From: Astropecten irregularis
Lineage: Eukaryota > Echinodermata > Asteroidea > Paxillosida > Astropectinidae
Reading direction: 5' to 3'
Assembly (NCBI GenBank): GCA_963971285.1
Contig: OZ020246.1
Span: 8,291,217 to 8,355,216, forward strand
Length of the DNA stretch: 64,000 bases
Shown here: positions 6,001-31,507 of the stretch, one piece after another
How positions within the stretch are numbered: position 1 is the stretch's first letter
Layout of the letters: each line of letters begins with the position of its first letter
The notes under the pieces: model-generated
Databases searched by the model: none
What the model saw: the letters and a program-made list of their open reading frames with translations, nothing else
Told to the model about the DNA's origin: nothing
Made by a program: the position numbers and the translations under genes

Positions 6001-8143
6001 TTTATCACTGTTGTCCGCGGGAGTTTAATAACTTGGGTGCAACCTTACGTACTGAAAACGGTATAAGTGGATTGCTGCGCGTGCGTGGTTGTCTGGTCAA
6101 AACACGGCTCATAATCAGCATTTACGCTGCTTTGCTGGTAACTATGATAAGGAAGTGAATAAAAAAACGGCATATATAAACCAGGCAATCAAACATCTGA
6201 ACGCGCCTTAATTTTATGTTGTTTAAATTGTATGTTTTATTTAATGACCAATATTTTCACGGACAGAGCAACCTACATGGAGAGCATTTCGATTAAGATT
6301 TGGTGCTGGTATTTAATGATATATAAAAGGAATTACGTGCCAACTATGGCAAGTTGTAAACGACGTTTTGTGTCACGCAATGGGACATGTGCATGGTATG
6401 TTATAACACAGTGAATTGCGTACGTAGACCTACATGTACCCTGTACGTATACGCGTATGGGAAATTGATCGAGCTTTATGTTTTGTACAAGGACCACGTT
6501 CACGTAATCTGTGTACAAAGTGAACGGGCTATAAAATATTTTTTAAAAATCATATAAAATCAAGTTTTGACGCCATGATGGTGAAAAGTTTCGGGGCACA
6601 ACTACCCTATATGGACTTCATTCAGACCAAGTTTGGTTAAGATCGGCTGTTTTAAAGTAACCAAAGTGCCGCGCAGAAAAATCTGTGTACAAAGTCTATG
6701 GGCCACAGAACAAACTCAAAAAAAATACTAGAGGTTGTGTCTGTTGAAAACAGAACACATGGCTTTTCCGCATATGATATAAAATATTTCTCTAATTAAA
6801 TACACATCGCTGATGTTGTTTGATTCAGCAAATAAATGATATCGTCTTCGGGAAATGATTTCTCGTTTTAATCAAAAGAGGGCGTTATTCAAAACCGTGC
6901 GCTCGGAAAATACGGGTGCAGCCAAGTAAATACATGTAGTGGCCAAATGGGTCCGCCGAGCTCATGAATAAAAGTTAAGCACTCAATATATTTGAAATAA
7001 GAGAGTTGTGAGAGCTATGAAAATGAAGGATTGAAGAAATACGGCACTGGACCTCCTGCCCGGTCTCTGGGCTTCCATTTGTGACCATTTTTGATGCAAT
7101 TGGGTGAGAAAGTGGGTCTATTTCAGCCGCTTTGCAGAGGGATGGTTTTTTTGGTGAAAATGGCTTCTTTGACTGGAGTGATCCATACCTTGTTTTAGGG
7201 GTGGTCAGCTGAGAATGAGTATAACTCAAAATTCAACGGTCACCCTACCATAAAATGAACAGAAAATGAAAGGTTACATGTTCATCATCATTTTTCTGTG
7301 CAACTTGAACAGCTGTAAGAGTTCTGTATATTTTTTAACGGTTTTTGAAGTTTGGGGATTTATCACTGTTGTCCGCGGGAGTTTAATAACTTGGGTGCAA
7401 CCTTACGTACTGAAAACGGTATAAGTGGATTGCTGCGCGTGCGTGGTTGTCTGGTCAAAACACGGCTCATAATCAGCATTTACGCTGCTTTGCTGGTAAC
7501 TATGATAAGGAAGTGAATAAAAAAACGGCATATATAAACCAGGCAATCAAACATCTGAACGCGCCTTAATTTTATGTTGTTTAAATTGTATGTTTTATTT
7601 AATGACCAATATTTTCACGGACAGAGCAACCTACATGGAGAGCATTTCGATTAAGATTTGGTGCTGGTATTTAATGATATATAAAAGGAATTACGTGCCA
7701 ACTATGGCAAGTTGTAAACGACGTTTTGTGTCACGCAATGGGACATGTGCATGGTATGTTATAACACAGTGAATTGCGTACGTAGACCTACATGTACCCT
7801 GTACGTATACGCGTATGGGAAATTGATCGAGCTTTATGTTTTGTACAAGGACCACGTTCACGTAATCTGTGTACAAAGTGAACGGGCTATAAAATATTTT
7901 TTAAAAATCATATAAAATCAAGTTTTGACGCCATGATGGTGAAAAGTTTCGGGGCACAACTACCCTATATGGACTTCATTCAGACCAAGTTTGGTTAAGA
8001 TCGGCTGTTTTAAAGTAACCAAAGTGCCGCGCAGAAAAATCTGTGTACAAAGTCTATGGGCCACAGAACAAACTCAAAAAAAATACTAGAGGTTGTGTCT
8101 GTTGAAAACAGAACACATGGCTTTTCCGCATTATGATATAAAA
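1..8143. repeat. Satellite array, about 1358 bp unit, six copies
   Basis: Head-to-tail copies start at 1, 1355, 2713, 4071, 5429 and 6787; the last ends near 8143, where the sequence departs after the TTTTCCGCAT motif. The first copy is 1354 bp in the window and carries scattered substitutions; the next five are 1358 bp and look nearly identical by eye. The array probably continues beyond the left edge. Each unit repeats the same short frames (84 codons on minus, 60 on plus), but these change in step with the DNA and carry no recognisable domain, so I treat the array as non-coding satellite. A diverged single relative of the unit's second half lies at 26545-27361. Confidence 0.95.
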
Positions 8144-9049
8144 AAATCGTCACAACCTTTGAAGCTTTCAAGTTATAGAAGAGTGCACCTTTAATCTTAA
8201 GTCACGTAACTTTTGGTTGTGTTTGTGCATGGAGCTATAAATAGCTCCATGGTTTGTGTCACAATTAAGGAAAGACCTTGCCTAACATTGACTTTTGTTG
8301 AAAGAATCATGAATGATCCTAGCTCTTACCACTTTTGAATGAGGAGCTTTTAAAAAAATCGTATGCTTTTAGGCTAGAAAAATTCATTCATCCGATAGCG
8401 ACTATTGCGGCCGACGGATATTATGCATAATCCACGCGCGCGATGTATAAAACAAAACTTGAGAGATCAACTGACACAATTCGGCTTCCGTACAACAAGC
8501 ACCGTTCTGCGCATGTCTTAGGCCGCGTTCCGACGTCTGCAGTCAATGGCTAGTGGCTTCTATAGGTACGTGCGTAATTTCCATCCGCAGCCATAGAATT
8601 GGGACACGGGCTTACTTCGGGGTGCATTTTGGTCGTGTATCCTGTCTCAATGAGAGTGTTTACTATCTACAGCTTGGAGGAGAACAATCTATTCATGACA
8701 ATAGTGTTTTTTCACCACGCCAAGTAAGTAAGGTTATGAATGCTTTATGAAATAAAAATGTTTGTTTTTGTGTATATTTCAGTGAGTAGTGCGAGGTACA
8801 TGTACTATCTAAGTCTTTATAAACTAGCGTCTGTTGCGATTGCCATAATATGTTTGAAGAGGATTTCGGTTAACAAATAATTTGATGCAAAGGCTAACGT
8901 TAGGAACTTGTTGGGGATTAGTATTGTGACGATGACTAACTTTAATATGCTTCCTGAGTAATGTCTTGTTAATGTTATGTTGTTGTGGTTCAGTGTATGT
9001 GAACATGGTCATGCTATAGCTATGGTCAGTATGGATTATTGCCTATGTG
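8144..9049. other. Non-coding stretch between satellite and hAT MITE
   Basis: No convincing gene. A perfect palindrome with 11 bp arms around a TATAAATA-like core lies at 8228-8251. GT-rich donor-like sites occur after position 8572 (GTACGT) and near 8723 (GTAAGT), so a short 5' non-coding exon for the downstream Helitron frame is possible, but nothing confirms it. Confidence 0.5.
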
Positions 9050-9351
9050 CAGGCGCGGTTCTAGAGTCAAAATTTTTGGGGGGCTAGAAGAGCCATTGTT
9101 TTTTTGGGGGGCTAGAAGACCTAATATTTTGGGTTCTTCTAACACTCGCTTCTGTTTATATGTCTTATTAGGGGTCGAAAAACATGCACATTATAGCCCA
9201 CACAACGCGTTTTTTATGTAATTGGCGCTGAATAACTGAAAAAATCCAGTATTTTCAAGAATTTTTTTTTTCACTTGCATTTTTTTTGGGGGCTAGACAA
9301 AATTTTTTGGGGGGTGTAGCCCCCCCTAGCCCCCCCGTAAAACCGCGCCTG
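9050..9351. mobile_element. hAT-type MITE, copy 1
   Basis: The termini are CAGGCGCGGTTCTAG and its near-complement ending AACCGCGCCTG. The element is flanked by an exact 8 bp direct repeat, CCTATGTG, at 9042-9049 and 9352-9359. CAG..CTG ends and an 8 bp target-site duplication are hallmarks of the hAT superfamily. The interior has G-rich GGGGGGCTAG tracts and no transposase. It is the reverse complement of the copy at 49581-49897. Confidence 0.9.
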
Positions 9352-10536
9352 CCTATGTGGAGTAGTTTGTATGATCTTGTATAGTTTTGCCTCAATTTGA
9401 ATCTATCCATCCATGGGTGGCCTAGCCATTCATTTATGTCATAAATTAAACATGGATGATAACACTTAATTCAATAATTGTTTTATTAATTAATGTTCAG
9501 TATAATCATGGAGAAAGGACTCCTCATTAATTTAGGACGTCTGCATATTTACTTATTTTTCCTTTTTTTACGTAAACATTATGTCCTTCATACCTGTACA
9601 TTATTGTGCTGTAGCACACTTTTTGACTGTTGGGTTTATAACCAGTGGCTACGTATCTCACTTGTGTTTGAATCATATTCAACATTTTATGTAAATTGAA
9701 GGATTTTTAGTCAATGGTGTATATTTCTGTTATTGATTTGTTTGATTGAGTCTGTCAATGCCAATGTTCTTAATAAGATAATTATGAAAATCATGATGAA
9801 TTCTTGTACTTTTTTGCACTTGTCCAGTACACAAAAGTTATTTTTTTGTTCTGATTATGTATTGGTGTTTTGAAGTAATATCTGCATTTTATACTATACT
9901 TGGACATTTATGTCACTTGTGTATGTCACTTGAACAGCATTTCAGTATAGAGGAAATCAAACAGTGTCTTTGTACAGTAACTTGTTAACAAAAATTATGA
10001 AAAACCTTGAACAAGGTAGTACATGTATATGAATATGCTTTGTAATAAACAACTACGGAAGTTGACGGCATTTGCTTAAGTCAAGAAGAGCCAAGAAATC
10101 TGACTGATGGAGGACTTGAACCTGCAACCTCCTGGTTACTGAACCAGCTTTTGACTGACCTGCATTGTCCAGCCCTACATTGGCAGCGTCCTAAATTGTA
10201 CCTTTTTTGGTTTTCAGTCAGAAGCTATGAAAGCAGACATTACTGTATTATTACTGCTATTTCCGAAGGATCAATTTATTCATTGTAGCAACAAAACTTC
10301 AGGAATCTCCCAAAGGGGAATGTTCCGGCTTATTTTGTATCAAAACACAAAATAAACCAGAACGGGAACTGAAACTGAAAATATTGATTGAAGTAATTTA
10401 AAGAAGAACAAACCACTGACTGAAGCAGTTGAACCTGAAAAATACAAATGAATAAAAATGACATGAAATGCAACCACTAATATCTGGGCCATCTTGCAAC
10501 AGTCAGTAGAGTGGGTTAGGAAAACATCCCTTTTAT
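9352..10536. other. AT-rich flank upstream of the Helitron frame, with tRNA-like repeat
   Basis: Mostly AT-rich sequence without a gene. About 10075-10340 is a degenerate, minus-strand tRNA-like repeat: a CTTGAACCTGCAACCTCC segment (decayed B box) and the downstream CAGTCAGAAGC word are shared with the better preserved copy at 50160-50395. The segment just before 10591 is pyrimidine-rich and looks like a 3' splice site. Confidence 0.45.
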
Positions 10537-13500
10537 GTGTTTTGTCTACTGACCTTATATGTTTCTGTTTTTCTTTTCAATTTGTTTTCAGGAAAAATGC
10601 CCAAGTACCAGCGACTCCAGCAAGCTAAGACAGTGAAGGATGATATGGGGATCCTGAAGATGAGGAGGCCCGTTGGAGGAATGTACGTTTCCTCCAACAC
10701 TTGCACGTTTCTTTCTGACTTGTCTAGTCTTTCTTTCCTCAGCTGTTCTTGTGTTAGTTCTCATGTCCGCTCTCTTTCTCTCTATTCCTCTTTCCTTTCC
10801 TTTCCCACTCAAGTCCACTCTGGGCTTGTGACTCGAGCACTCTTGCTTGAGGACGTTGCTGAGAACCAGGCACCAGTGCTTGCTATCAGCAACAGCCATA
10901 CATGCCATGTGAATAAACCAAAGATAACAATGAACCTCAAAATGAACCTCAGAATGAACCTCAAAATGAACCTCAAAATGAAGCTCGGAAATAGAAGGCT
11001 CGTTAGCTTTCGTCATAATGTAAAGCGTTTATGTCATGGTATAAAGAAATGTGTTGAACAAATGAGTTATAAGAAAAGCTATGAGACAAGCTGTGACACG
11101 AGCCATGAGGTGAGCCATGATACAAGCTGCGATGTGAGTCATGAGGTGAGCCATGATACAAGCTGTGATGTGAGTCATGAGGTGAGCCATGATACAAGCT
11201 GTGATGTGAGTCATGAGGTGAGTCATGAGGTAAGCCATGATATGAGTCATGAGGTGAGACATGATACAAGCTGTGATATGAGTCATGAGGTGAGACATGA
11301 TACAAGCTGTGATGTGAGTCATGAGGTGAGTCATGAGGTAAGCCATGATATGAGTCATGAGGTGAGACATGATACAAGCTGTGATGTGAGTCATGAGGTG
11401 AGACATGATACAAGCTGTGATATGAGTCATGATATGAGTCATGAGGTGAGACATGATACAAGCTGTGATATGAGTCATGAGGTGAGACATGATACAAGCT
11501 GTGATGTGAGTCATGAGGTGAGACATGATACAAGCTGTGATATGAGTCATGAGGTGAGACATGATACAAGCTGTGATATGAGTCATGAGGTGAGACATGA
11601 TACAAGCTGTGATATGAGTCATGAGGTGAGACATGATACAAGCTGTGATATGAGTCATGAGGTGAGACATGATACAAGCTGTGATATGAGTCATGATATG
11701 AGTCATGAGGTGAGACATGATACAAGCTGTGATGTGAGTCATGAGGTGAGACATGATACAAGCTGTGATATGAGTCATGAGGTGAGACATGATACAAGCT
11801 GTGATATGAGCCACAAGGTGATACATATGAAAGGCTGTGGGTTGAGGTATATGAGATATAAGAAGTGTACTAAGCATGTGAAAGGTGTATTTACAATACC
11901 ATTGAAGCAGAAGAGTCCTCGTACATTGAAGAGACAAGTGATAGCAACATGTACATGTTCAAATAGTTGGAAGTGTCGTCAACACACAATGAATCGGAGG
12001 TGTCAAACAACTGGATACACGGTTCCAAAGCGAGTAAGAATGACAAGAAAGGCCAAGAAACATGTTATGTATAATTACAGAAGAAATGGGAAATCAATCG
12101 AGCAGCGTATGTCTAAGAAGGACAGACAAGTACATGAAGAAGTAATGAAATCTACATTTTGTCATACAAGAAGATGTATTAGCAAAGTTATTCATGTAAG
12201 ACGGACTGTAAAGAGAAGGAGAGGAAAGAATGTCTGTGAAATGTCCAAAGTTATGAAAGGAAGCAAGAATAGAAAGACCTGTCAAGTAAGAGAGGAGAAA
12301 GTCAAGGACCTGGAAACAGAAAGTGATAATGGCAATGTGTGTTGGCTTTGTGATAAAAGTGATGGGTGTAGCAAAAGGAAGATACAATGTGATAAATGTT
12401 GTGTGTGGTTTCATACGACTTGCACAGGTATTTTGAACATTAAGGAATATTTGACTGGTAAGACATTCACTTGGGTTTGTTGTAAATGTGGACATAGTAA
12501 TTACTCTGACAGTTTGTTTCACAATTTTGGTATTTGTACAGATGAGAATCAGTTTGATATGCCTTGCAGTGCAGTAGACCAGTGTTCAGGTGGACCTATT
12601 GATGAAGTGTCTGACAAGGAGAACAGAAGGAATGATACACCAAAGACAGGAAATGGGTATGTTAAACTAAGTACTGGTAAACAGTCAATTAGACAACAGA
12701 GTGGTGGTTACTTCTTAAGAAAGAGGAAAACAATTTCACCTGATACTTCAAGTGAAAAGGAGAAATGTACAGATAAACAATCACAGCCCAGAGTGTGTCC
12801 ACAAAAGTGTGAGAGACGTCAAAGTGAGAAATCCTTACCCCACACTGATGACACTAGACAAACAGAAAGTCACAGCAGAAACAAGGATGGCACTAAAAAT
12901 GATGTCAAGAGAACTGGAATTAGATCTGTAAATAATGCCAGCAAAATTAACGTGACAGGAATACATCCAAATAGCAGGAGAAAGAGAAAGGTTGATGCAG
13001 ATTTGAAGAATAAGATGAATGAAATGCAGTCTAATGATGTGGTAAAGCCTGCTAAGATACAGTGTTGTCAGACAGTGAATAGTAGACAAGTTGATCAATC
13101 AATTGTTGCACAAGGTAGTTGTCATCAAGGAGATGTACGGTTTGGAAGAAATATTGGAAAGCAATGTGTGGCCATGTCCTTGAGTGCAATTATGAAAAGT
13201 CAGATAAAATGTATGAATAATTGGGGAAGGAATGACATGGACAATGTGCTTAACACTGGCAATGAACTGTATGGATTTTTGCAGCGAAGCTCAACTATGA
13301 ATAATGATTATCTGCTTATCAATGAATTACCAACTGATTTGAATGTGTATGAAAACAACTTTAGCATGAATTATGCGGAACCTGTAGTAGGAACATTCAA
13401 TGAACAGGATTCAACTTTGGCAGAGTTCAACATGATTTCACTGAAACTAGCTATAGAACAAACAATTCAGAAATATCAAGCATGTTTCATATGTTTTCAT

Positions 13501-16500
13501 GGAAATACTTTTGCAGTGATTTCCCACGTTGGAATTTATTATGTATTTGATTCACATTCCAGAAGTGTTCATGGCCTTCAAGTTCAAGATGGAACAAGTA
13601 TTTTGCAGCGTTCTTTGACATGGCAAGGTGTGTACAGGTATTGTACTGAACTTGGACATTCTATGAATCTGTCTGATAGTGAGCAATTTGAAATTACAGG
13701 TGTTCATATTTCCATTAGTCATGACCTCAGTATCTGTAGTGATCAACACATTGACAGTTCTAATAGTGCTTGCACCAGTAGTTGTACACAATGCGTGGAC
13801 ACTCAATGTTTAAGTGAGACAATGGAAACTAATGAAATTCAAAACAATGAAGAAATTTATGGAGTCAAAGCAAATACATCACACAGTGTTTTGTCAGATA
13901 ACATGCATAATATAGAATTTGATCATAAATTAAGTGGTGATAAGAAGAGTGGTAATGATTTAGAAATTATACAGGTTACTGAACCAGTTCCTTTGACATT
14001 TTTGCCACTGACTAAAAAAAGGAAGATTACATTGTGTCAGAAATTTGGGTTGAGCAAAGTACGGTTGAATACTGATGAGATTTCCACAAGATGTGAGAAC
14101 ATGGGAAGACCTGATTCTATAAAGAAGATTAGAGGTGATGGGAACTGTTTCTTTAGAGCAATTTCTTGTGCTATATCAGGAACAGAGGAAAATCATAGAC
14201 ATGTGAGAAATCTTACTGTAAATCATTTGCTGAAATATGCTGATAAATTTATGTGCTTTTTAAGAGAAGGGTTTTCTACCATACAAGATTATGTGGCTAG
14301 GCAGAGGTTGTTTCAGAGTGGTACATGGGCAACAGAAGTAGAAATCATAGCAGTGGCTGACATGTTGGGTGTTGATTTATACACGTATAGTGAGGGAAAT
14401 AATTGGTATGTGTTTTGTCGTTCATTCAGCAATACAGAGAGATTGTCAGATTGTGGAATTTATTTGTATCATAGAAATGAAGTTCATTATGATTTAGTTG
14501 TGAATGTTCATGAACATGTTTCAAGTAGTCTGGGTGACAATTTGGAAAACATTTGTAACACAGATATATTGTCTGAAGGTATTTATACGGAGCCACTCAG
14601 TAATGTTCATGGAAATGGAAAAAGTAATTCTAGAAGGGAAGATATTGGAACGCATTCTCAGCATAAGCGAAAGAGACGTAGCCGTGTAAATGTGGCATTG
14701 AAACGGAAATTGAACAGAGAAAGAGCAAGAGAAAGATACAATAAAACAAGAAATCCAAAAATTGCAGAAAAGAACAGAGCATACAGGGAAAAGCAGAATG
14801 ATGCACAAAGACAGAAATATACTGATTGTAAAGAGTTCAGAGAAAAGAAACTTGAATATGAGAGGAAGAACTATGCAGAAAATGGTGGTAAAAAAAAGAA
14901 ACTCTTGAAGCAGAAGTATCACAATGATAGTGTACGCAGAGAAAGAAAGATTAATAGTACAAAAGCCAGGTATTATGAAGATGCTGTATATAGGCAGAAA
15001 AACATTAAGCGTGCAAAACATAAATATCGCAGTAACCGAGTATACAGAAATGCTGTCATTAACTCTATCAAAAAAAAGTATTGGAGTAATCATTTGTACA
15101 GAATGAATTTGATAAAAAATCTTAAATGCAAGTATCGTCGTGATGTTGATTATCGTAAGAAAATAAAGCAGAGGGTTTTAAGACAGAGACATGCAAAAAT
15201 TCAACAAGCAAGGAACATGAGGAATGTTATTCGAAATTGGAAGAAATCAGTGTCAACAGGACCTGAGTATGTTTGTGCAGTTTGTTGCAAACTTTTGTTT
15301 AAAAGACAAGTTATTAGATGCAATAAAGAAAAATACAGCAACATAAGTTGTATATCTGACAAATATTTACATAGATGTTTATGTACAAAAGAGTGTGGAA
15401 ATGAATGTCTTGTATCAAAATCTAGCAGGTCTAGATTATGGATATGTTACACATGTCATAGAACATTACTCAAGAAGAAGATACCAGCAGAAGCATGTAC
15501 AAATAATTTACAGGTGATAGACATTCCTCAAGAATTGGATTGTTTGAATATTTTAGAGGAGCATCTCATTGCAATTAATATACCATTCATGAAAATGGTA
15601 GCCTTGCCGAAAGGTGGACAGAATTCAATACACGGTCCAGTTGTATGTGTACCATCTAACATTACAGATACAGTGACAGCATTGCCGAGATGTAGAAATG
15701 AAAATCAATTAATTCGAATCAAACTAAAAAGAAAACTAACTTACAAAGGATATTATCAATATCAGTTTGTGACCAAGGAACATGTGGAAACTGCATTAAG
15801 CTATCTTAAGCAGAACAATGTATGGTATAAAGATATTGAAATCAATTGTGATTGGAATGATCCCCTGTTAGATGATGTGAATGATGAGGAACATGAAGAT
15901 GACTTAGTACATGAGTCTGATGAAGCCAGTTTAAGTGATGAAGAAACAGATGAAGATCGTTTGTGTGGTATTCCACTTGATACATGTCTACAGCCTATAG
16001 ATATTGGACAAGAAGTGCTTGATCAATATTTTGATGATATACTTTGTGTTGCACCTTGTGAAGGAAACAATCCAGTTAGAGTGTTAATGGAGAAAGGTAA
16101 TGAGGCCAAATGTTTTCCAGCATTATTCCCAGCAGGCTCACCTATATTTGATGATGCACGTGATGGAAAACTGACACGCCTGAGATATTTTCATAATAGA
16201 TTGATGAATGCAGATAACAGATTTGCCAATTGTACTCAATATATCTTTTATGCCCAGTATTTATCAGAAATTGAAAAGGTCATGTCTAATGTTTCAATTG
16301 CTATGCGTCAAAGTTCAGGTCAAATGCATTATGGTCAAAGTGTGAATTCTAGCATGATTAATGATAGAGATCAATTAAATGATATTTTAAAGTCTGATTG
16401 TGGATATAAATTTTTAAAACCAATTAGAGGTACACCGTCATATTGGCAATCAACTCAGAGAGATGTCATGGCTATGATTAGACAACTTGGAATACCAACA

Positions 16501-19500
16501 TGGTTTTGCTCATTTTCTGCAGCTGATATGAGATGGCCTGAAGTCATTAATACATTATTGAGACAACAAGGGGATTTCAGAAACATTGAAGATTTGGATT
16601 GGAATGATAAGTGTACAGTATTGAGAAGCAATCCAGTGACTGTTGCTAGAATGTTTGAGAATCGATTTCACACATTTTTGAAAGATGTTATTTTGTCAAG
16701 TGCAGCACCCATTGGGAGAGTCAAGGACTATTTTTATCGAGTAGAATTTCAGCAAAGAGGATCTCCACACACACATTGTCTGTTTTGGATTGAGAATGCT
16801 CCAAAATTGAGAGAAGATAATGATAATGAAGTAGTAAATTTTATTGATTCATACATAAGTTGCAAGTTACCAACTCAGGAAGAAGATGAAGAATTGAATG
16901 AAATAATCAGTCATGTGCAGCAACATAGTAGGAAACATACCAAGTCTTGTAAAAAGAAGGGTTCTGAATGCAGATTTAATTTTCCAAGACCACCATCTAA
17001 TAGAACATTTATTGCCAGTCGTGATTCAGCTGATGGCTGTGATGATGAAGAAAGTGAGGATGATGAATATAATCATGAAGAAAGTACATCCATTAGTAAT
17101 GATGAAAAGAAACGCAAAGCAGCCAAGGAATTATTGCAGTCAGTATGGAATACAATCCAGGATGAGAAGAATCAACACATGTCCACATCTCAATTATTTC
17201 AAAGTATTAATATTACACAGACTGATTTTGAGAAGGCCAATGATGTTTTGAGCAGGAAACCTACTATTGTTTTAAAGAGAGAGCCTCAAGATGTATGGGT
17301 GAATCTGTATAATCCTGATTTAATTAGAGCCTGGAATGCTAATATGGATATTCAATATATCACTGATGCATATGCCTGTGCAGCATACATAGTATCATAC
17401 ATGTCAAAGTCAGAACGAGAATTAGGACAGTTGTTAGAACATGCGCAGAGTGAGGCTAAAAAGGGGAATTTAGATGCTAGACAGAGTATGAAGGAAATTG
17501 GATGCGTGTATTTACACAATCGGGAATTATCAGCTCAGGAAGCAGTGTTTCGTGTTTGTGGTCTGAGGTTGAAAGAAGGTTCTAGAAAAGTGGAGTTTAT
17601 ACCTGTAGGTGAAAATCCTGTAAGAATGAGTTTGCCTCTCAGTGTAATTCAGAGCAAATGTGAGGAGGAGGATGACATATTCATGACTAATAAAGTTGAT
17701 CGTTATAAAGCAAGGCCAGATATTGATGAATTTCATGGCATGTGTCTGGCAACATTTTGTTCAAAGTACAGAATTATTTATAATACAGGTGCTTGTAATG
17801 TATCAAGAAAATCACCAGTGTATGCATTGAAACATGGTCTGGGTCACATACAGAAACGTACAAGAACTGAACCAGCAGTCATAAGATACCCAAGGTTTTC
17901 AGTGACAAAATATCCAGAGAAATATTACCACTGTGCATTGCAGTTGTTTCTTCCATATCGTATTGATGCACAACTGAAGCCACCACAGTTTGATCACTAT
18001 GAACAGTTTTATAAGAGTGGCTCTGTTTGTTTAAATAAACAAATGAAAGCTGTAAGTGTTGTTGTTGAAGGTAATCGGTCTAAATATGAGAAGAATGTGG
18101 AGGCTCTTGAAGCAGCTAAACAATATGTAGAAAAACATGGTATGCAGGAAGATGCATGGGCTTTGATTTCACCAATATCTGAGCAGGAAAGAATGGAATG
18201 TGAAGCAGAGCGTGAGCCAGTATTATCAGAAGATGATGATTTGGATATTCCTGACCTACAATCTCACAAGAAAGACAAAGTGTGTAATATTGAACCACAC
18301 TCATTAAAAATGTCAAAGCAAGATGCACTAAGTTTATTGAGGTCATTGAATACACAGCAAAGGGAAGTGTTTAATAAGATTCGAGACTGGTGTTTACAGA
18401 AAGTGCAAGGCAAAAACCCTGAATCATTTCATGTGTTTATTACTGGTGGAGCTGGAACTGGGAAAAGTCATTTGGTTAAATCAATACATTATGAAGCAAC
18501 AAGAATCTTCACAAGAATGATTCATAATCCTGATAATGTGTCTGTAATGATAACTGCACCTACTGGAGTAGCAGCTTTTAATATCAATGGAAGTACAATT
18601 CACAGTGCTCTGTCAATCCCCACTGATGCACGTTTACCTTATCAACCTCTAGGTGAGGAAAAGTTGAATACTTTAAGGAATGAATTGCAAGATCTTCAGA
18701 TTGTTATTATTGATGAAATATCAATGGTTGATCATAAAATGTTGTGTTACATTCATGGACGTCTGCGTCAGATTAAGCAAACACGTGATCACAAGCCATT
18801 TGGAAAAGTGAGCATCTTAGCTGTTGGTGATTTTTATCAATTGCCCCCAGTCAAAGGAAAATCATTGTTTCAGAGAGATATTACAGTAGATCTGTGGAAT
18901 GACTGTTTTAAGAAAGTAGAGTTGAGAGAAATTATGAGACAAAAGGATGATATGCAGTTTGCAGAAACTTTGAATAGGATACGTGTGAGATCTAAGCAGG
19001 ATAAGTTATTGGATGAAGATGTTATAATGTTACAATCACGAGAAACTGGAGAAGAGTGGGATGATGCTTTACATATATTTCCATGTAATAAACAGGTTGA
19101 TGAATACAATAAGAAGATTCTGTTTGCAAAGTGCAGTGATTATTTCTGTATTTTAGCAAATGATTTTCAGAAAGAGTCTCAAACAAAGACAAGAGTGAAA
19201 ACACCCCAAAAATCAGTGCATACAACTTTGCCTGAATCATTGTGGCTAGGTACTGGTGCTAGAATTATGCTGACAAAAAATCTTGATGTTTCTGATGGAC
19301 TTGTTAATGGAGTACTTGGAACTGTTTGTGAAATCATTCTGTCACATGATGAATCTACCCCTGAATACATACATATTGTATTTGATAGCAGTAGTGTTGG
19401 ATCAAAAGTAAAAAGGAAAAATGCAGTAAATGATGGATATATTAGAATTCAGAGGGAAGAAGAATATATAAGCAAACAGTGGATAAGGCGTCAATTTCCA

Positions 19501-20415
19501 TTGAAATTAGCTTGGGCCTGTACAGTTCATAAAGTACAAGGAGTTACTACAGACAGAGCAGTGGTGTCTCTTGAACGGACATTTTCACCAGGTCAAGCAT
19601 ATGTTGCACTAAGCAGAGTAACATCTCTAATTGGACTTGTGATTGAAGGGTTTAATGAAAAGTTTGTTTATTGCAATAAAGCAGTGAAGGAATCATTGAG
19701 TAATATGATGCAATTTATTGAAGAACCTAATGTAAGAACACTACCATCAAATGGCACTGTAATCAATATAATGATGCATAATATCCAAGGATTGAAAGAA
19801 CACTTTGAAGACTTAAAATGTAATACTGATATGATAACATCAGATTTCATTTGTTTGACAGAAACATGGAGTGAGAATGAGTTTGACTGTGAGACAGAAT
19901 TAAGAGATTTTAAATGCTACCATCAAGTCAGAAGTGCATCATATAATAATTCATGCAGTGTTACTCACATGTTAAGCAAACAGTGTCATGGAGGTGTTGC
20001 TGTGTTTGGTAGAAGGAACAAGACATTCAGTAGACTGATGTTACCTGTACACAACTTGGAGTATATTGCAATACAAGTCATTAGTGATTTGTCATATTCT
20101 ATGATAACAATTTATCGTCCAGCATCATATTCCATGATTGAGTTTATTACCAACATGAAAGGTCTACTTCATGAACTTCATAAAGTATCTAACAGATGTA
20201 TTGTCATGGGTGATTTTAATGAGAATATTCTGAAACAGCATTCACAAATTGGGAAATTAATGTGTGAGCATGGATATAAACAATGTGTGACCGATGCAAC
20301 AACAGAGAATGGGACATTGATTGATCATGTATATGTGAGAAATATGGAATCAGTATGTGCAACTGTAATTCCTACTTATTATAGTTATCATGAAGGTGTG
20401 TGTATTAATATGTGA
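10537..20415 (+). CDS. Helentron-class Helitron Rep/helicase polyprotein
   Basis: This 3292-codon frame encodes the replication protein of a rolling-circle transposon. In order: a Cys/His/Asp repeat tract (about 183-425); PHD finger (about 602-652); a region like herpes-tegument/C76 peptidases with C877 and D1005/H1007; OTU peptidase with D1201-G-N-C1204 and H1317; basic Tyr-rich repeats (about 1360-1560); a DUF6570-like Cys-rich region (from about 1580); Helitron Rep with H2078-T-H2080 and Y2284/Y2288/K2291; Pif1-type SF1 helicase with Walker A G2637-S2644 and DEISM at 2726-2730; and an endonuclease/exonuclease/phosphatase domain (about 3077-3292, GDFN at D3226). A C-terminal endonuclease after the helicase is typical of Helentrons. 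The first 20 codons look like intron ending in an AG at 10590-10591, so the Met at 10597 is the likelier start. No stop or frameshift interrupts it, suggesting recent activity. Element termini were not identified. Confidence 0.93.
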   Translation: MFCLLTLYVSVFLFNLFSGKMPKYQRLQQAKTVKDDMGILKMRRPVGGMYVSSNTCTFLSDLSSLSFLSCSCVSSHVRSLSLYSSFLSFPTQVHSGLVTRALLLEDVAENQAPVLAISNSHTCHVNKPKITMNLKMNLRMNLKMNLKMKLGNRRLVSFRHNVKRLCHGIKKCVEQMSYKKSYETSCDTSHEVSHDTSCDVSHEVSHDTSCDVSHEVSHDTSCDVSHEVSHEVSHDMSHEVRHDTSCDMSHEVRHDTSCDVSHEVSHEVSHDMSHEVRHDTSCDVSHEVRHDTSCDMSHDMSHEVRHDTSCDMSHEVRHDTSCDVSHEVRHDTSCDMSHEVRHDTSCDMSHEVRHDTSCDMSHEVRHDTSCDMSHEVRHDTSCDMSHDMSHEVRHDTSCDVSHEVRHDTSCDMSHEVRHDTSCDMSHKVIHMKGCGLRYMRYKKCTKHVKGVFTIPLKQKSPRTLKRQVIATCTCSNSWKCRQHTMNRRCQTTGYTVPKRVRMTRKAKKHVMYNYRRNGKSIEQRMSKKDRQVHEEVMKSTFCHTRRCISKVIHVRRTVKRRRGKNVCEMSKVMKGSKNRKTCQVREEKVKDLETESDNGNVCWLCDKSDGCSKRKIQCDKCCVWFHTTCTGILNIKEYLTGKTFTWVCCKCGHSNYSDSLFHNFGICTDENQFDMPCSAVDQCSGGPIDEVSDKENRRNDTPKTGNGYVKLSTGKQSIRQQSGGYFLRKRKTISPDTSSEKEKCTDKQSQPRVCPQKCERRQSEKSLPHTDDTRQTESHSRNKDGTKNDVKRTGIRSVNNASKINVTGIHPNSRRKRKVDADLKNKMNEMQSNDVVKPAKIQCCQTVNSRQVDQSIVAQGSCHQGDVRFGRNIGKQCVAMSLSAIMKSQIKCMNNWGRNDMDNVLNTGNELYGFLQRSSTMNNDYLLINELPTDLNVYENNFSMNYAEPVVGTFNEQDSTLAEFNMISLKLAIEQTIQKYQACFICFHGNTFAVISHVGIYYVFDSHSRSVHGLQVQDGTSILQRSLTWQGVYRYCTELGHSMNLSDSEQFEITGVHISISHDLSICSDQHIDSSNSACTSSCTQCVDTQCLSETMETNEIQNNEEIYGVKANTSHSVLSDNMHNIEFDHKLSGDKKSGNDLEIIQVTEPVPLTFLPLTKKRKITLCQKFGLSKVRLNTDEISTRCENMGRPDSIKKIRGDGNCFFRAISCAISGTEENHRHVRNLTVNHLLKYADKFMCFLREGFSTIQDYVARQRLFQSGTWATEVEIIAVADMLGVDLYTYSEGNNWYVFCRSFSNTERLSDCGIYLYHRNEVHYDLVVNVHEHVSSSLGDNLENICNTDILSEGIYTEPLSNVHGNGKSNSRREDIGTHSQHKRKRRSRVNVALKRKLNRERARERYNKTRNPKIAEKNRAYREKQNDAQRQKYTDCKEFREKKLEYERKNYAENGGKKKKLLKQKYHNDSVRRERKINSTKARYYEDAVYRQKNIKRAKHKYRSNRVYRNAVINSIKKKYWSNHLYRMNLIKNLKCKYRRDVDYRKKIKQRVLRQRHAKIQQARNMRNVIRNWKKSVSTGPEYVCAVCCKLLFKRQVIRCNKEKYSNISCISDKYLHRCLCTKECGNECLVSKSSRSRLWICYTCHRTLLKKKIPAEACTNNLQVIDIPQELDCLNILEEHLIAINIPFMKMVALPKGGQNSIHGPVVCVPSNITDTVTALPRCRNENQLIRIKLKRKLTYKGYYQYQFVTKEHVETALSYLKQNNVWYKDIEINCDWNDPLLDDVNDEEHEDDLVHESDEASLSDEETDEDRLCGIPLDTCLQPIDIGQEVLDQYFDDILCVAPCEGNNPVRVLMEKGNEAKCFPALFPAGSPIFDDARDGKLTRLRYFHNRLMNADNRFANCTQYIFYAQYLSEIEKVMSNVSIAMRQSSGQMHYGQSVNSSMINDRDQLNDILKSDCGYKFLKPIRGTPSYWQSTQRDVMAMIRQLGIPTWFCSFSAADMRWPEVINTLLRQQGDFRNIEDLDWNDKCTVLRSNPVTVARMFENRFHTFLKDVILSSAAPIGRVKDYFYRVEFQQRGSPHTHCLFWIENAPKLREDNDNEVVNFIDSYISCKLPTQEEDEELNEIISHVQQHSRKHTKSCKKKGSECRFNFPRPPSNRTFIASRDSADGCDDEESEDDEYNHEESTSISNDEKKRKAAKELLQSVWNTIQDEKNQHMSTSQLFQSINITQTDFEKANDVLSRKPTIVLKREPQDVWVNLYNPDLIRAWNANMDIQYITDAYACAAYIVSYMSKSERELGQLLEHAQSEAKKGNLDARQSMKEIGCVYLHNRELSAQEAVFRVCGLRLKEGSRKVEFIPVGENPVRMSLPLSVIQSKCEEEDDIFMTNKVDRYKARPDIDEFHGMCLATFCSKYRIIYNTGACNVSRKSPVYALKHGLGHIQKRTRTEPAVIRYPRFSVTKYPEKYYHCALQLFLPYRIDAQLKPPQFDHYEQFYKSGSVCLNKQMKAVSVVVEGNRSKYEKNVEALEAAKQYVEKHGMQEDAWALISPISEQERMECEAEREPVLSEDDDLDIPDLQSHKKDKVCNIEPHSLKMSKQDALSLLRSLNTQQREVFNKIRDWCLQKVQGKNPESFHVFITGGAGTGKSHLVKSIHYEATRIFTRMIHNPDNVSVMITAPTGVAAFNINGSTIHSALSIPTDARLPYQPLGEEKLNTLRNELQDLQIVIIDEISMVDHKMLCYIHGRLRQIKQTRDHKPFGKVSILAVGDFYQLPPVKGKSLFQRDITVDLWNDCFKKVELREIMRQKDDMQFAETLNRIRVRSKQDKLLDEDVIMLQSRETGEEWDDALHIFPCNKQVDEYNKKILFAKCSDYFCILANDFQKESQTKTRVKTPQKSVHTTLPESLWLGTGARIMLTKNLDVSDGLVNGVLGTVCEIILSHDESTPEYIHIVFDSSSVGSKVKRKNAVNDGYIRIQREEEYISKQWIRRQFPLKLAWACTVHKVQGVTTDRAVVSLERTFSPGQAYVALSRVTSLIGLVIEGFNEKFVYCNKAVKESLSNMMQFIEEPNVRTLPSNGTVINIMMHNIQGLKEHFEDLKCNTDMITSDFICLTETWSENEFDCETELRDFKCYHQVRSASYNNSCSVTHMLSKQCHGGVAVFGRRNKTFSRLMLPVHNLEYIAIQVISDLSYSMITIYRPASYSMIEFITNMKGLLHELHKVSNRCIVMGDFNENILKQHSQIGKLMCEHGYKQCVTDATTENGTLIDHVYVRNMESVCATVIPTYYSYHEGVCINM
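10930..10985 (+). repeat. 15 bp coding microsatellite in the Helitron frame
   Basis: Five imperfect copies of a 15 bp unit (ATGAACCTCAAAATG phase) encode a Met-Asn-Leu-Lys repeat inside the Helitron frame, just upstream of the larger minisatellite. Confidence 0.85.
11085..11812 (+). repeat. In-frame 36 bp minisatellite built from 12 bp subunits
   Basis: Three related 12 bp subunits alternate: AGTCATGAGGTG, AGACATGATACA and AGCTGTGATATG. Together they form a 36 bp higher-order unit encoding SHEV-RHDT-SCDM, with occasional insertion or loss of a 12 bp subunit. Because every subunit is a multiple of three, length changes never break the Helitron frame. The opposite strand is also open in two frames across the same tract, for the same arithmetic reason. 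Confidence 0.95.
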
Positions 20416-20879: not shown

Positions 20880-22435
20880 ATATTTGTGAATGGTACATTC
20901 AGCACTCAGCAGGGCCTTGTCCACCCGGCTACCTTCGCTGCTTGTGACCATGGCTGTGACTGATACACTCAGCAGGGCCATGTCAACCCACGGCCAGTCT
21001 TCACGTATACCATTGTCATCTTGCCACCATGGCTGTGACTGATACACTCAGCAGGGCCATGTCAACCCATGGCCAGTCTTCATGTATACCATTGTCATCT
21101 TGCCACCGTGGCTGTGACTGATACACTCAGCAGGGCCATGTCAACCCATGGCCAGTCTTCCCTACAAATGTCTTCTTGCCACCATTGCTGTAGTAGATAC
21201 CCTCAGCAGGGCCATGTGAACCCATGGCCAGTCTTCCCTACAAATGTCTTCTTGCCACCATTGCTGTAGTAGATACCCTCAGCAGGGCCATGTCAACCCA
21301 TGGCCAGTCTTCCCTACAAATGTCTTCTTGCCACCATTGCTGTAGTAGATACCCTCAGCAGGGCCATGTGAACCCATGGCCAGTCTTCCCTACAAATGTC
21401 TTCTTGCCACCATTGCTGTAGTAGATACCCTCAGCAGGGCCATGTGAACCCATGGCCAGTCTTCTCTACAGTTGACATCTTGCCACCATGGCTGTGACTG
21501 ATTCACTCAGCAGGGCCATGTCAACCCATGGCCAGTCTTCACGTATACCATTGTCATCTTGCCACCATGGCTGTGGCAGATACACTCAGCAGGGCCATGT
21601 CAACCCATGGCCAGTCTTCACGTATACCATTGTCATCTTGCCACCATGGCTGTGACTGATACACTCAGCAGGGCCATGTCAACCCATGGCCAGTCTTCAC
21701 GTATACCATTGTCATCTTGCCACCATGGCTGTGGCAGATATACTCAGCAGGGCCATGTCAACCCATGGCCAGTCTTCACGTATACCATTGTCATCTTGCC
21801 ACCATGGCTGTGACTGATACACTCAGCAGGGCCATGTCAACCCATGGCCAGTCTTCACGTATACCATTGTCATCTTGCCACCATGGCTGTGGCAGATACA
21901 CTCAGCAGGGCCATGTCAACCCATGGCCAGTCTTCGCGTATACCATTGTCATCTTGCCACCATGGCTGTGGCAGATACACTTATCAGCAGGGCCATGTCA
22001 ACCCATGGCCAGTCTTCCCTACAAATGTCTTCTTGCCACCATTGCTGTAGTAGATACCCTCAGCAGGGCCATGTGAACCCATGGCCAGTCTTCTCTACAG
22101 TTGACATCTTGCCACCATGGCTGTGACTGATTCACTCAGCAGGGCCATGTCAACACATGGCTGTGACTGATTCACTCAGCAGGGCCATATCAACCCATGG
22201 CCTCTCTACACTGTAGTTGTCATCTTGCCACCATGGCTGTGACTGATTCACTCAGAATGGCCATGTCAACACATGGCTGTGACTGATTCACTCAACAGGG
22301 CCATGTCAACCCATGGCCCCTCTACACTGCAGTTGTCATCTTGCCACCATGGCTGTGACTGATTCACTCAGCAGGGCCATGTCAACCCATACCCAGTCTT
22401 CACAGTTGTCATCTTGCTATCTGGATATTGACTGG
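20880..22435. repeat. 76-79 bp minisatellite downstream of the Helitron
   Basis: About 19-20 tandem copies share the core CAGGGCCATGTCAACCCATGG and a CTTGCCACCATGGCTGT segment. Spacing measured at successive TGTCAACCCA words is 79, 79 and 76 bp, reflecting two unit subtypes (an ACGTATACC type and a CTACAAATG type). The last copies decay and shorten from about 22130. Open frames across it follow the repeat and are not treated as genes. Confidence 0.93.
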
Positions 22436-25400
22436 TACGCTCAGCACTCTTCTATGGTCATAACCATTTCAGGTATAGCAGCTGTTAATAATTTTTTTAG
22501 ATTTTGTGTTGACATTTTTGGAAAATGTAACAATGTAGCCACAAAAAGATTTTCACTCTGTCTTTACAATTTCTGTACAAAAATTTGAAAAACAGAAATG
22601 TTATTACATTTTCACAGAAATGTCTGTTGACTCTAAAACTTGTTCTGTTCCAAGCCTATTTCTGTTCATGGTGCAAAATTTATTGAAAGATTTATTGACA
22701 TTTTATTAAAACACCAAAATCACCTTAATTTTCAAGCGTATCTTCTGTCTTTTTATTCCACCTTCTCATTTTATAGTTTGGAATATTGGACAAGCTTCAA
22801 TACACCAGCAGTAGACAGCCACTTTTGTAAACATTGTGGACTGCACATAGAGACTAACCAACTGTGTGTTGCTTCGTGGCATGTATTCAGCAAACCTAAT
22901 TGACTGCTACCGTTGTTGCCAAGGAGATAAACATGATGTAACATCAAGCAAAGAAGACATTCCCCTGTTTGTCAACCAGCCAGACTCACATTGGTCACTA
23001 CATGTGACATCTGCTAGAAACTTTGTGGCTCAAGGATGAGAGTTGTAAACCATCAGAGGATCAGTCATCTCTAGCATTCATCTCATCAACATCTTCAATA
23101 AACTGTGTCTCTTCAGACAACTCAATATTACACATTGTATTGCAAAAAGGTTATTATAAAGGGAAGCAATTTTTGATTCAACATTTGGTTCTTTATTCAG
23201 GGCATCTTCAGGAATGATTTCTTCCTGTGCAAAGCATCTTTGTACAAAACAAATTTACTACAAGTAAATGTGAAAGGCATGACATAGGTCAATTTATGAA
23301 AAGAAATCTTCATTTTCTAGCTGACGGCCACTTAACAAGAAGTGCTGTAGCCTAGTAGTATGTTGAGTAGTATGGCTAATGGTGCTTGCGTCCTTGGCAT
23401 GGGCAAGACGCTCTGTCACATTTTCCTCGTCACCCATGAATATGTTGCAGGTCGTGAGGGTAGAGATGGCTTTGTACTTGGTTAGTCTGTGTGCTCCTAA
23501 TTACAGCAACCTGAGTTGTATACTCCCCGGGGAGTTGATGTTTTCAAGAATGTACATGTAAATGCAGCCCGATGACCAAGTACATGTACATTAGTACAGT
23601 GTAATGTGCAGTTGTGCACATAGAGACATCATACATTTATTGTGGTATGCACTGCCGACTATGCAGTTTATTACCTATTTTCATTATTGTTATTAAAGGT
23701 ACAGTATAGTATAGTGCTGGATTTCACAAAGCACTAAGATTAATCTTAAGGCTGAGTTATCAATTTCGCCATAATGTTTTGTATTGTGACATCACACATA
23801 TTGCTTGGCAATTAAGATTGATTCACAATTAAGATCAGTAGTAGTGCTTCGTGAAATCGGCCGCAGGATTGGTAACATACCCAAACAGAAATATTCATAG
23901 ATTTATGTATAACTCCTGCTATTATAATAATTATTATATGAAGATGGTGCTGTTGATATATTTCCACCTGGAATGGTATATTTATCCAGAAATTAGTCAA
24001 ACAAAGACTGAAAACAGTTTTGATCTTGCGGTAAATCACAACCATCCTTTATGTTTTAGAAGAAAAAATGATTCAGGTTTGTGTAATTTTCTTGGGACTC
24101 CGATGTCAGATTGAGCTAAATTGTTCACAGGTTTATCAATTCATGTATTTTTTATAAGTTAAATCAAACAAAGTGTGAGTACTATTTTGTGACCTTCATC
24201 AATCATGTATTATACCTTTAATATCATCGTCATAGTACTATTACCAATACCCTGTGAAATATATTTCCCTCTGAAATGTAATCTCCAATGAAATGATCTA
24301 TTTTGATGTTACGCAAATCACAAGTACACATACACCTTGAAATTTTGTTGTATCATGCAGTAGGATTGGTTTGACAAACATGCATCGCAGCTTTCTTTAC
24401 ACCAATGTACTTTGTTGGAGTAATGAGAAAAAACTCCTTTCTTTGTTTTCATGTTGAGAAATTCCAAGGTATTGAGCCAAAGCATTATGTCATTCAAGGC
24501 AAAACAACATTGTCTGCATAGTTTTGTGTACATTTTAAACATACAAAGTACATTATATATTTTCTTGCTGGTCATGTAAGTTACCTGTTATGGCTTCTGA
24601 CTGGCAAATGAACCAATATAATTGACCATCGTGGACACCTCCAACATATAATAGTTCAGATTCATCAGTTTGTAGAGTCTAGTATATGGTATTGTTGGGT
24701 TCACAGGTTCTAATTCCCCTCCAGTCAATATGTATTTGGTCACTTTTTAATAATTTTAAATTAACTCAATCAATTTGCCTTGTACTTACAAAATTGTTGA
24801 TGATTTTGAATGACAAATCATTGTACTGTTCTCATGCATGAAAGGACTAGTCTGTGTGTGTAGTTAAACAATCAAAATAGTCCTCTTTAAGACCTACAGG
24901 TATTGATCAAAGGATGTTGACAAAATGGGAAAAGTATAATAAACCCTATTCGCAATTTATGTACAGTTTTTATTGTCGTGGCATAATTATAGCAGGGATG
25001 AGATTTCTCAGATTAAAATCTGATTGCAGACTTTGTTGTTTTGGATTTCAGATTTTTTCCCCTCTTAGGTTGTGTACAATCATGTATAGGAGATTTTCAG
25101 AGTTCAGACTTTTTATGCTCCCTGTCAGCTGTTTTCAGACATTTTTTGTCATTGGTCAATCTCATCCCTGTTACAGTATTATGTATGCAAACAAGTCAAG
25201 CTGAAACTGTGTACTTTATGTTTCATTTATTTACATTACAATTAGTCAATATTTCAGAATGAATGTGTACTTTACATTGTATTTATTTTGTTTAAAACAC
25301 TGATTACTAGTTCACCTAAAGAAAAAGAATTACATGTATGGTTGTGCACAGCTGAACAAGCTGAATCAAGTTATATGCATTTTCTACATGTTTCCACCCA

Positions 25401-26544: not shown

Positions 26545-27361
26545 ATGAAAAAACGGGCTAAGTAGATTGCTGCGCGTGCGTGGTTGTCTTCTCAAAAACA
26601 GCATTTACGCTGGCAACTATGATAAGAAAATGAAGGAGAATACGGCATATATAATTAAGGCAGGCAAACAACCGTGCGCGCTCCTTGCATGAATAAAAAT
26701 CTTATGTTTTATTTTATGACCAATATTTTCACGTACAGGGCTCTGTACAAGTCAATGGGCTAGCGTGAGAAAGATTTTAAAAATCATTAAAAATCACGTG
26801 ATGACGTCGTCGTGACGTTACTTCATAATTACAATCTCCGACCTCTATTTCACCACCCTACCAAATTTCAAGGCGACCGGCCAGTCCTTCTATGTATTAT
26901 AAAAATTGCATTTTTTTGACGTCATGATGACGTCACATTATTTTCATCTGCTCAGTGTTCATCTATGTTGTATGCTTAAGAAGTATCAAAAAGAAATTCA
27001 AAGATATCTTGTTTCGTTTACTAGATATCGTTAAAAGAACTTCAACCAACAGTTTCAATAAATCATAAAAAATCAGAGGATGACGTCATGATGACGTCAT
27101 TGCATTTTTTGGATATAACACTTCCAAACTTATTTACATACCAAGTTTCAACTCAGTCAGACTAAAGGTTCATTCATAATTGATGTCTGAAGTTTGCTCC
27201 TTTAAGACACTGTCACGTGACACCTGATGACGTCATCATGGCGAAAAGTTTCGGGAGACAACTACCCTATATGGACTTCCTTTAGACCAAGTTTGGTTAA
27301 GATTGGCTTTTTAAAAGGGACCAAAGTGGCGTGTAGAATGCCCCTGTGTAAAGTCTATGGG
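26545..27361 (+). repeat. Diverged single relative of the 1358 bp satellite unit
   Basis: It begins with AGTAGATTGCTGCGCGTGCG and ends with the block AACTACCCTATATGGACTTC through AAGTCTATGG, in the same order and orientation as about 618-1270 of satellite unit 1. It carries about 170 bp of additional internal sequence containing TGACGTCA dyads (around 26918, 27078 and 27226). This looks like a dispersed repeat family from which the array at the left edge was amplified. Confidence 0.8.
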
Positions 27362-27409
27362 AAATCAAAATGGAAGAAGAAAAGAAAAAAAAAACAGAAC
27401 AAAAATAAA

Positions 27410-27686
27410 GGGTTTTCGCTGACGCGGAAAACCCAAAAAAAAAAATCAGAACAAAAACAAAGGCTTTTCCGCTATCACGGAAAAGCCAAAAAAATCAGAA
27501 CAAAAACAATACCTTTTCCGATTAAAATCGGAAAAGCCAAAAAAATCAGAACAAAAACAATACCTTTTCCATTGAACATGGAAAAGCCAAAAAAAAAAAA
27601 AAAATAAGAAAAACAAAAGCTGTTCCGCTGCATGCGAAACAGCTAATAACAAAAACAAAAGCTGTTCCGCCGCATGCGAAACAGCT
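27410..27686. repeat. Array of six short hairpins with A-rich spacers
   Basis: Six small inverted repeats lie at 27410-27434, 27462-27487, 27511-27538, 27562-27588, 27618-27644 and 27660-27686. They are separated by A-rich spacers, the first four containing ATCAGAACAAAAACAA or a close variant. Stem sequences change between hairpins (for example GGCTTTTCCG/CGGAAAAGCC, CTTTTCCAT/ATGGAAAAG and an AGCTGTT..AACAGCT pair), mostly with matching changes in both arms. It directly follows the satellite relative. Confidence 0.8.
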
Positions 27687-27689
27687 AAA

Positions 27690-27795
27690 AATGAACCAAA
27701 ACCTACCAAAGGTGTCTAACGTTAGATTCCCTCCGTTTGCCGTCAGTCGGCCATTTTGAATAGTGCGCAGTGCCATCTCGACCAAATTACGTCTC
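27690..27795 (-). repeat. Exon-like inverted repeat, left copy
   Basis: About 105 bp nearly identical, in reverse orientation, to about 32755-32860. On the minus strand it reads ATGGCACTGCGC..., and the segment corresponding to a splice donor is GGTAGGTTT, weaker than the GGTAAGTTT in the right copy. A 7-8 bp duplication (CTAACGTTAGA region) distinguishes this copy. It contains an AAAATGGCCGAC motif reminiscent of YY1 sites. It may be a duplicated promoter plus first exon. Confidence 0.75.
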
Positions 27796-31495: not shown

Positions 31496-31506
31496 AGCAT
31501 TGTCAT
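29668..31506 (-). CDS. LINE reverse transcriptase, 5'-truncated and prematurely stopped
   Basis: The 612-codon frame encodes a non-LTR reverse transcriptase: SGKSPGVDNIPAELLK, AGFRPGRSTTEQIF, FIDFKKAFDRVW, GVRQGCLLSPTLFN and catalytic FADD (about 387-390), then a thumb/C-terminal part with LLYGCETWTL and RRRRGRQRKTWSDNIKD. In related proteins the terminus continues DWTSLSTPDLL; here that W codon reads TAG at 29668-29670, and TSLSTPDLLRSAANRDIWQG follows it in frame. A 15-base G run at 29569-29583 disturbs the frame further down. The first codons (Met-Thr-Met) lie in the host target-site duplication, so this start is accidental and the true ORF, including the endonuclease, was lost by truncation. 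I place it in the RTE-like group from memory of its motifs. Confidence 0.85.
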   Translation of the reverse strand: MTMLLVLALCDERRALKAERHMNEEARKKHQMKNREVRKKMKQAREDWIDDQCNNIDRYMRFGSSKRAYDTLKALTRTHQSRTNAIESKDGQLLTDGQEVLARTARWTEYCDSLYNYELHPDHTILQDTPTPSTPDQDDSPPVLKEEVEEAIRSMKSGKSPGVDNIPAELLKHGGEGVVTALTALCQKIWDQSKWPAEWTKSLVIPLPKKGKIRQCQNYRTISLISHPSKVMLKVILNRLKSKAEELLAEEQAGFRPGRSTTEQIFNCRIIIEKHLQHQRHLYHNFIDFKKAFDRVWHDGLWTVLRGFGIDENLVQVIQALYGDTSSAVLLNNIIGTPFRTTVGVRQGCLLSPTLFNLFLERIMIETLQDHHSSISIGGRPLSNLRFADDIDLMAGSKDELQSLTNRLVDRAGAYGMEISTEKSKVMSNSATNIDVGITMNGKQLEEVHRFKYLGALITNDGTSSAEILVRIATASAAMARLSRVWKSNMSFASKYKLYRSLVVSSLLYGCETWTLHAETERRIQAFEFRCLRRLLRISYTEHKTNQHVRSTINSMVGPQEPLLATVKRRKLAWYGHVTRHNCLAKTILQGTLEGRRRRGRQRKTWSDNIKD

Positions 31507-31507
31507 T

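Follow-up and report, generated by a model that had tools for sequence, protein, structure and literature searches.

What a transposon might do with two different cysteine peptidases is the question raised by a single giant reading frame within the 64,000-nucleotide stretch of Astropecten irregularis DNA analysed here (the window). From the letters of the sequence, the initial annotation had proposed that one Helentron frame combines two different candidate deubiquitinases with a PHD finger and an endonuclease, and at the sequence level this proved right. The best explanation, to which a probability of about 0.6 is assigned, is that the locus is a Helentron-class rolling-circle transposon encoding one giant polyprotein, in which a viral-tegument-like deubiquitinase (VTD) and an OTU peptidase protect the transposition machinery. 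It draws on what the sequences show, namely the order of the domains and the catalytic residues, together with the conservation and the purifying selection seen when genomic copies are compared.

Reading frame and domain organization

The frame is open from stop to stop over 10510-20415 (3,301 aa), its sole stop lying at the frame end. The codon at 10537 is not ATG, and the first methionine, at 10597, gives a polyprotein of 3,272 aa (10597..20415, + strand); residues are numbered below from this methionine (protein P0001). Position 10597 is the better start because, as judged by eye, a splice-acceptor-like pyrimidine tract ending in CAG (TTTTCTTTTCAATTTGTTTTCAG) directly precedes it, and the first 20 residues counted from 10537 are probably non-coding. 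Counted from 10537, the residue numbers given in the initial annotation are exact (C877, D1005, H1007, D1201, C1204, H1317, H2078, H2080, Y2284 and Y2288). An in-frame pyrimidine-rich stretch at 10690-10810, with up to 93% C+T per 30 bases and a translation rich in S, L and F, could be a short in-frame intron; no GTAAGT, GTGAGT or GTATGT donor was found for it. Further downstream, an in-frame 36-bp tandem repeat of ~20 copies (11081..11826, +) encodes a 12-residue S/H/D/E/C repeat.

The domains follow in the order PHD finger, herpes-tegument-like peptidase (the VTD), OTU peptidase, Lys/Arg/Tyr-rich repeats, DUF6570 (15472..15852, +), HUH Rep, Pif1 helicase and AP-type endonuclease. Pfam was applied with its curated cutoffs to the whole protein and, separately, to pieces of it. 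In the whole protein, Helitron_like_N (123.8 bits, cutoff 28.9), PIF1 (102.2, cutoff 25.9), DUF6570 (78.9, cutoff 24.3), Herpes_teg_N (37.6, cutoff 25) and Exo_endo_phos (24.7, cutoff 24.5) exceeded their thresholds, as did AAA_19, AAA_30 and Pif1_2B_dom. The PHD finger and the OTU are absent from the whole-protein listing at E<=1 and appear only when pieces are scanned apart. NCBIfam returned helicase, relaxase and ATPase matches only, all far under their cutoffs.

The transposition domains place the element among the Helentrons. The Rep (16189..17400, +) carries the HUH residues H2058/H2060 and the tyrosines Y2264/Y2268, and lies in one protein with a Pif1 helicase (18346..19332, +) with Walker A, Walker B and 2B domain; the HUH, Tyr and Walker residues are present in 21/21 copies (the window and 20 others). 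The C terminus is formed by the AP-type endonuclease (19780..20412, +), which scores 31.2 bits against a cutoff of 24.5 when scanned as a piece. Two of its five residues examined are seen in 17/21 copies and three in 16/21, the remaining stretches ending earlier, and its last motif reads SYH, the usual form being SDH. The Rep motif FYRVEFQQRGSPHTH fits the pattern [FY][wlyk]R-[VI]ExQxRGSPHxH, described as diagnostic of Helentrons by Thomas et al. 2014 (PMC4067079). Going by their families, the Rep would nick and join DNA, the Pif1 helicase would unwind it, and the endonuclease would cut target or helper DNA.

The two peptidases

The VTD (13108..13701, +) contains Q844, C857, D985 and H987. As a piece it matches Herpes_teg_N (PF04843) with 43.0 bits (cutoff 25, E 4.9e-11), and its best match among solved structures is 8ADD, the crystal structure of zebrafish DrT1-VTD2 (E 1.2e-7), followed by three large tegument proteins (E 0.019, 0.26 and 0.56). 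A profile of the VTD from 17 copies matched 8ADD with E 6.1e-8 over positions 4-196 of 198, with the Q, C, D and H residues aligned. The resemblance of this region to the C76/tegument-type peptidases, suggested earlier from the catalytic residues, is thus borne out by a profile match. AlphaFold, run on the single sequence without an alignment, gave no readable fold for either the VTD (pLDDT 31) or the OTU (pLDDT 37); the predicted papain-like fold of the VTD is supported by homology to the solved domain 8ADD.

The Q-x12-C and D-x-H residues of the VTD are present in 21/21 copies. The glutamine of a VTD supplies the oxyanion hole. Cys plus Asp-x-His is the rule for the VTD catalytic motif given by Erven et al. 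2022 (PMC9741609). In the 8ADD alignment, D376-E377 of the zebrafish domain correspond to N909-E910 of the element, the glutamate being kept and the aspartate position occupied by asparagine in all 21 copies. Since a D-to-A change at zebrafish D376 strongly lowered chain cleavage in the work of Erven et al. 2022 (PMC9741609), N909 bears on the activity of the VTD. Deubiquitinase activity is predicted for this domain by its homology to the assayed zebrafish Helitron VTDs.

The OTU peptidase (14131..14520, +; D1181, C1184 and H1297) scores 42.9 bits in Pfam as a piece (cutoff 23.3, E 8.8e-11), and its region matches OTUD5 among solved structures (E 8.1e-13). The D, C and H of its catalytic D-x-x-C...H pattern are kept in 21/21 copies.

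Genomic copies and selection

The genome searched (G000; 475.7 Mb in 168 contigs) contains the window, and the first 1,464 bases of the frame gave 92 matching pieces in it, several per copy. Twenty ten-kilobase stretches were compared, taken mostly from the top of the match list and therefore biased to well-kept copies. The PHD finger, VTD, OTU, basic repeats, DUF6570, Rep and Pif1 occur in the same order in 20/20 of these; 16 also show the endonuclease, and the remaining four stretches stop short of it. Because these 20 copies keep both order and residues, the arrangement is beyond chance. The frame is open over all sequence read in 17 of the 20 and broken in L018, L021 and L022; nine of the open copies remain so throughout the stretch, with no stop in the sequence read, and eight have their own stop, with 3,061-3,327 codons.

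Values of pN/pS with a codon bootstrap were obtained from 18 sequences, three near-duplicates (5 or 6 differences per 10,000 bases) being left out; sequence pairs are non-independent, so the 95% intervals understate the uncertainty. The VTD gave 0.35 (0.23-0.52) and the OTU 0.29 (0.20-0.44), compared with 0.34 (0.24-0.48) for the endonuclease, 0.21 (0.16-0.26) for Rep, 0.19 (0.14-0.24) for Pif1 and 0.13 (0.08-0.20) for DUF6570. The PHD finger gave 0.35 (0.18-0.71), the PHD-VTD linker 0.45 (0.32-0.63), the VTD-OTU linker 0.71 (0.52-0.96) and the basic repeats 0.53 (0.44-0.63). Corrected dN/dS sums resemble these values. Both peptidases are clearly constrained, at about the level of the endonuclease and more loosely than Rep and Pif1; the intervals of the PHD finger and the VTD overlap that of the linker between them, and neither is separable from it. 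The purifying selection on VTD and OTU speaks for the importance of both peptidases to the element, and does not identify a substrate. Synonymous divergence is high in the basic repeats (pS 0.33), which may reflect misaligned repeat units and is given no weight as evidence, and pS is 0.09 in the VTD versus 0.12-0.21 in the PHD finger, OTU, DUF6570, Rep, Pif1 and endonuclease.

These values also bear on the idea that the accessory domains are captured passengers without function. Helitrons do capture host sequence, according to a review of giant transposons, and the pN/pS interval of the PHD finger is wide and overlaps those of the linkers. Against this stand the catalytic residues kept in 21/21 copies and the pN/pS of VTD and OTU well under 1. 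Non-viral VTDs reside mostly in Helentron-type Helitrons, and the VTD and OTU pair recurs in 121 others as described by Erven et al. 2022 (PMC9741609). The passenger reading is very improbable overall, and for VTD and OTU it is largely refuted.

Several copies lie within 185 kb on one contig (C11, 16.21-16.39 Mb), where L016 and L017 have the same 10,000 bases and L015 departs from them at 6 positions; these may be a cluster or a segmental duplication. Two further copies on different contigs, L013 and L014, show 5 differences in 10,000 bases. The element is apparently young and probably active.

Element ends and adjoining repeats

The element probably spans ~8085 to 27391-27690, or 19.3-19.6 kb. 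Its 5' end (8085..8140, +) begins with ACTAGAGG..., followed by a weak palindrome and then GGCTTTTCCGC; the folding of this palindrome is not exceptional, 25 of 200 shuffles doing as well (z -1.3). The C20 copy (L031) matches the window from 8085 (ACTAGAGG...), and L030 matches it closely from ~8076, with a diverged relative before that. The C10 copy is 99.8% identical to the window over 8000-9742, 97% identical over the N-terminal part including the tandem repeat, and 100% identical in each of the further stretches compared, at 21656-23155, 23156-24655 and 26984-27391. Past the equivalent of 27391 the C10 copy switches directly into another ACTAGAGG start, whereas the window continues into a 3' end (27391..27690, +) with hairpins such as GGCTTTTCCG...CGGAAAAGCC. 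By eye there are about six of these tandem modules (27385-27690), with periods of 51 and 42 bp; three were folded (z -4.0, -6.5 and -3.4), the one at -6.5 as single-stranded DNA. The arm of one such hairpin contains the GGCTTTTCCGC also seen close to the 5' end, and in the C20 copy a like hairpin lies immediately ahead of the 5' end. We infer that the 3' hairpins are part of the element, and they are possibly multiple termination signals. No empty insertion site was seen among the copies, the neighbours being head-to-tail relatives. A 12-bp inverted repeat at 8175/22444 was considered as the element ends and rejected, as the genomic copies put these at ~8085 and at 27391 or later.

Inside the element, 3' of the frame, repeat analysis identified a 79-bp minisatellite (20903..22446, +), and a diverged array of this kind is also present at the C1 copy. 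To look for captured coding sequence, six ORFs were scanned against Pfam, four from the 3' region and two from the 5' region, and none reached a family cutoff. A short repeat is nested in the 5' region at 9050-9336 and occurs inverted at 49611-49897 (91% alike); by eye it has the ends GGCGCGGTT...AACCGCGCC and is flanked by a directly repeated GCCTATGTG, appears MITE-like, and is missing from L006 and L007 at the corresponding place.

Adjoining the element, positions 1-8143 hold a 1,358-bp unit repeated head to tail about six times, the repeats being 97-99% alike. ACTAGAGGTTGTG is found at 1295, 2653, 4011, 5369, 6727 and 8085, its only occurrences on the + strand of the window. Because each unit contains the 5' start of the element and shares pieces with its 3' region, the units look like non-autonomous derivatives, and the array is a probable satellite-like series of head-to-tail Helentron derivatives; by eye, the units are without terminal hairpins. 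Tandem Helitrons have been explained in print by bypassed termination, and Helentron-borne satellites are known in oyster (PMC7492417).

Elsewhere in the window, a frame of 621 codons containing a reverse transcriptase domain lies at 29668-31533 on the - strand (RVT_1, E 2.2e-40; Pfam), a tRNA gene-like match at 52466-52538 on the + strand (Rfam), and a frame with a CRAL/TRIO domain at 60615-61160 on the - strand (Pfam).

PHD finger, basic repeats and possible targets of the peptidases

The PHD finger (12340..12489, +) has a complete C4HC3 set, all eight ligands being kept in 21/21 copies. Its Pfam score as a piece is borderline, 24.0 bits being exactly at the cutoff of 24, and its matches to solved PHD fingers are headed by 1WEE (E 1.3e-5), with TAF3 at 2.2e-4. 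TAF3, BPTF and MLL, all among the PHD fingers matched, are H3K4me readers. The Lys/Arg/Tyr-rich repeats (14740..15220, +) have an 18-residue period attained by 0/1000 shuffles and no Pfam match; they vary more between copies (46-100% identity) than any of the other seven regions compared, and possibly bind DNA.

The deubiquitinases might accordingly be guided by the PHD finger to host targets, such as H2A/H2B chromatin ubiquitin or innate or germline defence factors. The finger and its ligands in every copy and its matches to the TAF3, BPTF and MLL fingers speak for such targets, as does the expression of domesticated VTDs in the male germline (Erven et al. 2022, PMC9741609); its borderline score speaks against them, and this explanation is considered unlikely. 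A further proposal, held to be rather improbable, is that of a dual-deubiquitinase transposase directed to chromatin, in which the PHD finger and basic repeats would place VTD and OTU, with differing linkage preferences, at nucleosomes of insertion or replication sites, where editing of histone or replisome ubiquitin would permit rolling-circle transposition.

The initial annotation had also raised processing of the polyprotein by its own peptidases, which would cut it into Rep-helicase, endonuclease and accessory parts in the manner of viral DUB-type proteases. A multi-domain frame of 3,272 aa is what such processing would act on, and a GG at RQQSGGYFLR, in the PHD-VTD interval, is found in 15/17 of the longest copies (with T for S in two), the exceptions being the mutually identical L016 and L017. 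Canonical Helitrons, on the other hand, work with Rep and helicase fused. P0001 contains no LxGG (ubiquitin-tail-like) motif, and neither do the longest frames taken from 17 copies, which leaves self-processing unsupported, other sites being possible. Viral deubiquitinases often do both jobs and have di-glycine-flanked sites, but the Helitron VTDs that were assayed act on ubiquitin, two out of three accepting NEDD8 as well (PMC9741609). Self-processing of the polyprotein is regarded as quite unlikely.

In the preferred reading, protection of the transposition machinery, VTD and OTU would by homology strip the transposition protein, or proteins helping it, of ubiquitin, and the transposition complex would thereby escape proteasomal removal. 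The PHD finger and basic repeats may anchor the protein on DNA and histone tails, the least certain step. Protection of transposition proteins from proteasomal degradation was proposed by Erven et al. 2022 (PMC9741609).

Comparison with known systems

The OTU of the element shares its D/C/H residues with OTUD5 (3TMO) and OTUD3 (4BOU), members of the same family to which it is only distantly related. Two scans of viral contigs found no relative. With the Helentrons and HINEs described by Thomas et al. 2014 (PMC4067079) it has in common the Rep motif, a C-terminal AP endonuclease and, probably, a 3' hairpin; its 5' palindrome is weak by comparison, and the OTU, placed by those authors in additional ORFs, is here part of one frame in a ~19 kb element. 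The terms "tegument" and "deubiquitin" are absent from the text of that paper as available. Likewise, "phd" is absent from the available texts of Erven et al. (PMC9741609), Thomas et al. (PMC4067079) and the giant-transposon review. Among the matches listed in the open-access literature, no Helitron PHD finger was apparent from title or abstract start, and papers with both Helitron and PHD terms had other subjects by title, which is weak evidence of absence.

The closest known systems are the VTD-containing Helentrons of Erven et al. 2022 (PMC9741609), whose named hosts are vertebrates, insects, cnidarians and molluscs, and which share the catalytic C and D-x-H with the element. Its VTD is identical to 8ADD at 52/188 aligned residues (28%). 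According to Erven et al., three zebrafish Helitron VTDs cleave K48 and K63 di-ubiquitin, one of them from the VTD and OTU element DrT2, and no catalytic activity of transposon OTUs had been tested as of that report (PMC9741609). By its description, DrT2, with a single active VTD and an OTU, combines Rep, helicase, AP endonuclease, VTD and OTU in one element, as here. The pairing of VTD and OTU is thus already published (2022), and the present element is a well-preserved further example. Its PHD finger and 18-residue basic repeats have no counterpart in the wording of Erven et al., whose main text is without mention of PHD, zinc finger, chromatin or histone. What is new is the set of 20 copies in the same genome with the PHD, VTD, OTU order, the catalytic residues and purifying selection on both peptidases. 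Its near-identical copies are found at different sites, the frame is still open in most of those read, and both peptidases are under purifying selection, which makes the element a good natural test system for what transposon-borne deubiquitinases do.
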